In this document: positions 43,790 to 43,995 of the stretch, one piece after another
Layout: the number at the start of each line of letters is the position of its first letter
Numbering within the stretch: the stretch's first letter is position 1
DNA from: Corallococcus sp. AS-1-6
GTDB lineage: Bacteria; Myxococcota; Myxococcia; Myxococcales; Myxococcaceae
DNA length: 64,000 bases
NCBI RefSeq assembly: GCF_020037015.1
Contig: NZ_JAIQDE010000025.1
Coordinates: 62,001-126,000 of the forward strand
Direction: 5' to 3'
Program-made: the position numbers and the translations under genes
The notes under the pieces: model-generated
The model's database searches: none
The model's input: only the letters and a program-made list of their open reading frames with translations
What the model was told of the DNA's origin: nothing

Positions 43790-43821
43790 AAAAAGCCCCG
43801 CGCTCGGGAGGAGCGCGGGGC
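43790..43821 (-). terminator. Attenuator terminator in the thrA leader
   Basis: On the minus strand GCCCCGCGCTC and GAGCGCGGGGC form a perfect 11-bp stem around CTCCC, followed by five U residues. It is 108 nt upstream of the thrA ATG. No minus-strand gene ends upstream, because the next gene there runs the other way. The hairpin therefore fits premature termination of the thrA transcript. Confidence 0.85.
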
Positions 43822-43881
43822 CGGGTTCGGAAGGAGGGACCTCCAGGAGGTCCACTTCGGAAGTCAGGCGGTCCGCGCTCC
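43810..43881 (-). promoter_or_regulatory. Antiterminator pairing and middle hairpin of the thrA attenuator
   Basis: The leader segment GGAGCGCGG (43873-43881, inside the last codons of the leader peptide) is exactly complementary to CCGCGCTCC in the 5' arm of the terminator (43810-43818). A 7-bp hairpin GGACCTC-CTG-GAGGTCC (43837-43853) lies between them. A ribosome at the leader stop would cover the first segment and allow termination. A ribosome stalled on upstream Thr codons would leave it free to break the terminator. Confidence 0.65.
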
Positions 43882-43995
43882 GCGAGGAGTCAGGCCGGTG
43901 CGAGTGCAAGTCTCGGTCAGCACGGTCCGCGCGCGCGCGCCCACGGGGGACGTCGTCCCCTCGTGCCGCTGGCTGTTCCCGCTGCGTCCGGCCAT
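43864..43995 (-). CDS. thrL: Threonine-rich leader peptide of the thrA attenuator
   Basis: A 43-residue reading frame starts at an ATG at 43995 with GGGGA a few nt upstream and ends at TGA 43864. Its last 20 residues, TVLTETCTRTGLTPRGARTA, contain seven threonines, and two more come earlier. The frame ends 42 nt before the terminator hairpin, and its last codons hold the antiterminator strand. This is the arrangement of thrL in enterobacteria, but with no Ile codons, suggesting a response to threonine alone. The sequence is unrelated to enterobacterial thrL. An internal start would not change the logic. Confidence 0.65.
   Translation of the reverse strand: MAGRSGNSQRHEGTTSPVGARARTVLTETCTRTGLTPRGARTA

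Follow-up and report, generated by a model that had tools for sequence, protein, structure and literature searches.

Does a ribosome-mediated switch of the enterobacterial kind govern threonine synthesis in myxobacteria? The question is raised by the DNA in front of thrA in the window, that is, the whole stretch of 64,000 nucleotides analysed here, where an earlier note had read an enterobacterial-type threonine attenuator. In E. coli, thrL encodes a Thr-rich leader peptide with an antiterminator strand at its end, a terminator lies before thrA, and the target is aspartate kinase/homoserine dehydrogenase I (AK-HSD I). At the sequence level the earlier reading is supported, as the arrangement is conserved in 39 of 40 related upstream regions. 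On these grounds we hold with high confidence that the thrA leader is a classical ribosome-mediated transcription attenuator, which would sense charged tRNA-Thr and control thrA.

Results

The target gene scored 991 bits against NCBIfam NF006959 (cut-off 726), the AK-HSD I equivalog, and contains the Pfam domains AA_kinase, ACT and Homoserine_dh. The gene downstream of the leader thus belongs to the pathway of the amino acid in question. The 43-residue leader frame with seven Thr in its final 20 residues, as claimed before, was indeed present (Table 1). In random 20-codon frames at 68% GC, at least seven Thr occurred with a P of about 5e-5 (20,000 trials).

Table 1. Features upstream of and including thrA, in window coordinates
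Feature	Position	Strand	Description	Basis
Putative promoter	44035-44005	minus	-35-like CTGACC (44035-44030), -10-like TAGGAT (44010-44005)	conservation
Leader peptide frame	43995-43864	minus	43 codons, MAGRSGNSQRHEGTTSPVGARARTVLTETCTRTGLTPRGARTA plus stop; 9 Thr	ORF list, conservation
Early hairpin-like segment	43953-43931	minus	GGGGACGACGUCCCC; possible pause hairpin	recurrent inverted repeat
Antiterminator 5' strand	43881-43873	minus	GGAGCGCGG; leader codons 39-41; complementary to 43818-43810	kept in 39 genomes
Nested hairpin	43853-43837	minus	GGACCTCCTGGAGGTCC; lies between leader stop and terminator, inside antiterminator	folding in relatives
Intrinsic terminator	43822-43790	minus	hairpin 43822-43795, T5 43794-43790	terminator scan, folding, conservation
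Antiterminator 3' strand	43818-43810	minus	CCGCGCTCC; part of terminator 5' arm	
ORF2	43747-43673	minus	24 aa, MTPLPMCRPSPRVPPFQKEAVSCA plus stop; stop overlaps thrA start by 10 nt	
thrA	43682-41226	minus	bifunctional aspartate kinase/homoserine dehydrogenase I	NCBIfam, Pfam

We then compared 40 thrA upstream regions with a readable terminator, 14 from Corallococcus and 26 from Myxococcus. The window genome clustered with named Corallococcus species, and the orthologues at 79-83% identity were those of Myxococcus (including Pyxidicoccus). A record named Comamonas sp. KCTC 72670 (BNCN01000014.1, L061) also carries a Myxococcus-type thrA, at 80% identity, and its organism name appears to be wrong. 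The alignment, which the earlier note had proposed as a check on its reading, showed that 39 of the 40 regions retain a leader frame with its Thr codons together with the antiterminator strand and the terminator, and with them both stems. This conservation across species excludes a chance origin. Upstream of distant AK-HSD family genes (L043-L046) no such terminator was found, and among the genes examined the element appears to be confined to thrA in Corallococcus and Myxococcus.

Thr codons numbered 455 in the leader frames of the 39 relatives, and the two other reading frames had 87 and 40, so that the conserved frame is enriched in codons for the end product of the pathway. ACC (197), ACG (183) and ACT (75) were all used, and ACA never. 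Such synonymous usage indicates that the amino acid is kept rather than a DNA repeat. The 26 Myxococcus leaders carry mostly uninterrupted Thr runs of 5-13 codons, which vary in length by whole codons and stop directly before a conserved (R)GAR or RRAR segment, whose RNA contributes the antiterminator strand GGAGCGCGG; the C-terminal ends of these leaders read like STTTTTTTTTRGARAV or LTTTTTTTTTTPRRARVV. Across leaders, the distance from the end of the Thr run to the antiterminator strand is nearly fixed. Stretches of six ACN codons in succession are rare in the 9.5 Mb genome to which the window belongs, with only about 18 occurrences. All nine leader Thr positions are invariant across nine Corallococcus species, in which 11 of the 34 other positions vary (P 0.05), with nonsynonymous changes predominating in the non-regulatory remainder. 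Free evolution of this kind is to be expected if nothing but the regulatory codons and the RNA strand is under constraint. A survey of 12,993 small frames from all loci analysed found at least seven Thr in the last 20 residues in thrA leaders and otherwise at only four sites; two of these belong to loci chosen for their ACN runs, and two are stretches read out of frame in a neighbouring coding gene. Near Bacteroidota relatives, Thr-rich frames (L109, L124) were rejected, as they lie out of frame within a coding gene.

The terminator previously described as a perfect 11-bp hairpin with five U residues between frame and thrA was recovered as a G+C-rich hairpin with 11 perfect pairs and one additional G-U, at -26.5 kcal/mol (z -4.8 relative to shuffles). 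It begins 41 nt after the leader stop, 107 nt separate the end of its T-run from the thrA ATG (43682), and a terminator stands between leader and first structural gene in all 40 genomes. The proposed 9-nt complementarity between the last leader codons and the terminator 5' arm proved exact. The 5' strand lies beyond every leader Thr codon except one (T42 in the window); the antiterminator shares the terminator 5' arm, and the partner of that arm could be masked by a ribosome finishing the leader but not by a stalled one. In the window the antiterminator folds at -41.7 kcal/mol (z -4.9; mean z -4.4 over 31 distinct sequences), near-equal to the -43.4 kcal/mol of terminator plus nested hairpin, and this balance is what a switch needs. 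The sequences themselves thus show the frame and its Thr codons, two structures that exclude one another, the conservation of these features, and what the gene encodes.

Although the flanking sequence diverges widely, hardly any change is seen in the strand GGAGCGCGG, which reads GGGCGCGG in the M. xanthus group, or in the arm CCGCGCTC. Among the 31 distinct sequences, the eight core antiterminator pairs showed a change from A-U to G-U in five and an A-C mismatch in one, and RNAalifold detected no compensatory changes in the core. Because the arms are almost invariant, covariation is not demonstrable and counts neither for nor against the pairing; what the core shows is strong conservation. 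The nested hairpin folds in all 31 sequences (mean z -1.8) despite being lineage-specific in sequence. An inverted repeat near codons 13-17 recurs across species with altered bases, and its fold in the window was no better than shuffles (z 0.07); a role of this early hairpin in pausing is a guess.

The one exception, G025 (L009), has a 10-nt deletion relative to its relatives, by which the antiterminator strand is gone and the leader frame is shifted, so that it would end within the terminator loop. Hence the element has been dispensable at least once. In this genome the switch may simply be lost, or a ribosome parked on the terminator may allow constitutive readthrough.

A generic sigma-70 scan found no promoter site before the leader. 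The putative promoter of Table 1 shows TAGGAT at the same site in Corallococcus (TAGACT in L042), and in Myxococcus TTGACT is spaced 17-18 nt from CAGCCT or CAGCGT, which lies 8-9 nt from the leader start, at the same distance as the Corallococcus element. It predicts a transcript that would start within a few nucleotides of the leader ATG and be near-leaderless.

Between terminator and thrA, ORF2 was found in 40 of 40 genomes, with a length of 21-28 codons. The distance from its start to thrA is only ever 59, 62, 65, 68, 71, 74 or 77 nt, which means that the frame is always preserved. The overlap of its stop with the thrA start measures 10 nt, except in the M. xanthus group, where it is 4 nt (ATGA). 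From this frame-preserving overlap we infer that ORF2 is probably translated and coupled to thrA, supplying ribosomes by translational coupling.

Other amino-acid loci were surveyed as well. Before hisG, a His-rich leader (SLHHHHAHHRPAHDGTVRRAHAWVTH plus stop) with runs of the HHHHAHH type was present in Corallococcus, Myxococcus and a third genus (L167-L172, e.g. L168 1269-1398), with a terminator GGCCCGTCC...GGACGGGCC followed by T6, whose complement GACGGG lies in the leader directly after the His codons. This is likely a His attenuator and, being of the same design, indicates that attenuation is not a single oddity in the family. No Trp leader was seen at trpE and no branched-chain leader at ilvB, and a search for leuA gave no gene of the usual type. 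The thrA gene is not adjacent to thrB or thrC, before neither of which a Thr leader of the thrA type was seen; one Thr-rich frame precedes a thrC copy in L159, and its counterpart is missing in L160.

Discussion

In the mechanism we propose, transcription would begin beside the leader frame, with a ribosome trailing RNA polymerase along the leader. With ample Thr-tRNA the ribosome would reach the stop and cover GGAGCGCGG, the terminator would form, and transcription would stop before thrA. When Thr-tRNA is scarce, the ribosome would stall on the Thr codons upstream of GGAGCGCGG; the free strand could then pair with the terminator 5' arm over the nested hairpin, the terminator would be blocked and thrA transcribed. 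The switch thus very probably turns thrA off when threonine is plentiful. In this scheme the promoter, the stalling, the termination and the response to threonine are what we infer. The attenuator reading is supported by a target gene that encodes an enzyme of the Thr branch and by the His-codon counterpart before hisG.

Could the terminator merely end upstream or antisense transcription, next to a fortuitous frame? Intrinsic terminators are common, and the earlier statement that no minus-strand gene lies upstream was wrong, since an M16-like frame is located on that strand at 46003-44495. This gene, however, ends about 670 nt from the terminator, a plus-strand frame intervenes, and it has its own terminator-like site at 44447-44434; for these reasons it does not explain the terminator before thrA. 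Moreover, if the frame were fortuitous, its Thr codons and the complementary strand would not have persisted across 39 genomes from two genera, and we give this explanation almost no credence. It is also very improbable that the region is a general translation or RNA-folding element, sensing ribosome activity, a small RNA or a metabolite, in which the Thr codons play no part. Any sensor could work through such a terminator and antiterminator, and Rfam yields only sub-threshold look-alikes of hairpin-terminator type. Yet the Thr runs are long, variable in length and synonymously varied, the spacing from their end to the antiterminator strand hardly changes, the gene that follows belongs to the Thr pathway, and Rfam scans of the thrA leader gave no known riboswitch aptamer and no T-box.

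A different place for the sensor is ORF2, in which case control would be mainly translational and the upstream terminator would set only the basal level. The presence of ORF2 in every genome, its frame-preserving overlap and the Thr-rich starts of some copies (MKTQTSTTTTHSP or MTTQTSTTTPSP, in part of Myxococcus) would fit. Its composition fits poorly, as Thr (10%) is less frequent than Pro (20%) and Ser (14%), and ORF2 copies from the M. xanthus group contain just one to three Thr. The upstream leader, on the other hand, retains its Thr codons in all genomes but one. We therefore regard ORF2 as an improbable main sensor. A two-stage control, with leader attenuation followed by a coupled ORF2 that in part of the clade tunes thrA reinitiation through its own Thr codons, is rather unlikely too; if true, transcription attenuation and ORF2-tuned reinitiation would act in series in myxobacteria.

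Returning to the attenuator, its likeness to thrL of E. coli covers the short Thr-rich leader, the terminator before thrA, the antiterminator strand near the leader's end and the AK-HSD I target. In contrast to thrL, the myxobacterial leaders lack the E. coli Ile codons, an Ile run being absent, and Myxococcus has longer pure Thr runs. Here thrA also stands apart from thrB and thrC, unlike in the E. coli thr operon, and a coupled ORF2 follows the terminator; the transcript is probably near-leaderless, and there is no sign of sequence homology. The Rfam Thr_leader covariance model did not match the thrA leader (E up to 1 and up to 10), which thus shares the enterobacterial mode of action but stands outside that sequence family. 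The actinobacterial attenuators of trp, leuS and ilvB (PMC1262725) resemble it in their codon run and their G+C-rich terminator and antiterminator sharing a strand in high-GC genomes, and differ in amino acid and gene; that survey of Actinobacteria reported no conserved RNA structures at threonine operons (PMC1262725). As in reinitiation leaders, the ORF2 stop lies at the start of the structural gene, but ORF2 overlaps the gene start, whereas the study of such leaders covered only non-overlapping ones, one per gene (PMC4833913). No myxobacterial attenuator was found in the literature searched, outside which Vitreschak 2004 and Lopatovskaya 2010 lie, and an earlier prediction for Myxococcus is possible. 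The mechanism belongs to a known class, and what appears to be new is the lineage and the details.

Amino-acid attenuation would thereby be extended to the Myxococcota, bacteria that respond to amino-acid starvation by development and predation. As nearly all Corallococcus and Myxococcus relatives carry the switch, enterobacterial-type control would operate also in social predatory bacteria. It would offer a Thr-tRNA sensor ready for use in the tractable Myxococcus xanthus, and the poly-Thr leaders, with runs of 5 to 13 between species, form a natural series for relating codon number to sensitivity.

Other family members possess a second AK-HSD, about 40% identical, and for either copy the best NCBIfam score is still that of AK-HSD I. 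Before this second thrA paralogue, a SAM-I/IV riboswitch scored above the gathering score in Myxococcus and another genus (L132 632-751, L133, L135, L137, L143). A Thr leader on one copy and a SAM riboswitch on the other would fit a division of labour between the Thr and Met branches, and the His leader together with the SAM riboswitch suggests that amino-acid synthesis in Myxococcota is generally under control at the RNA level. The window's own genome has a second AK-HSD-like gene (L197, G000:C11:142600-145600) with a divergent amino-terminal part and a score of 656, below the AK-HSD I cut-off of 726. In L138-L142 and L049, a very conserved Met-rich frame, PVTRMPMSMEAMLMRGPGMRA, lies about 300 nt before the second paralogue; scanning of two of these loci (L140, L142) gave no SAM riboswitch match near it. 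A TTGACA promoter-like site precedes the frame, alternative helices are possible downstream, and it is a candidate Met-codon leader.
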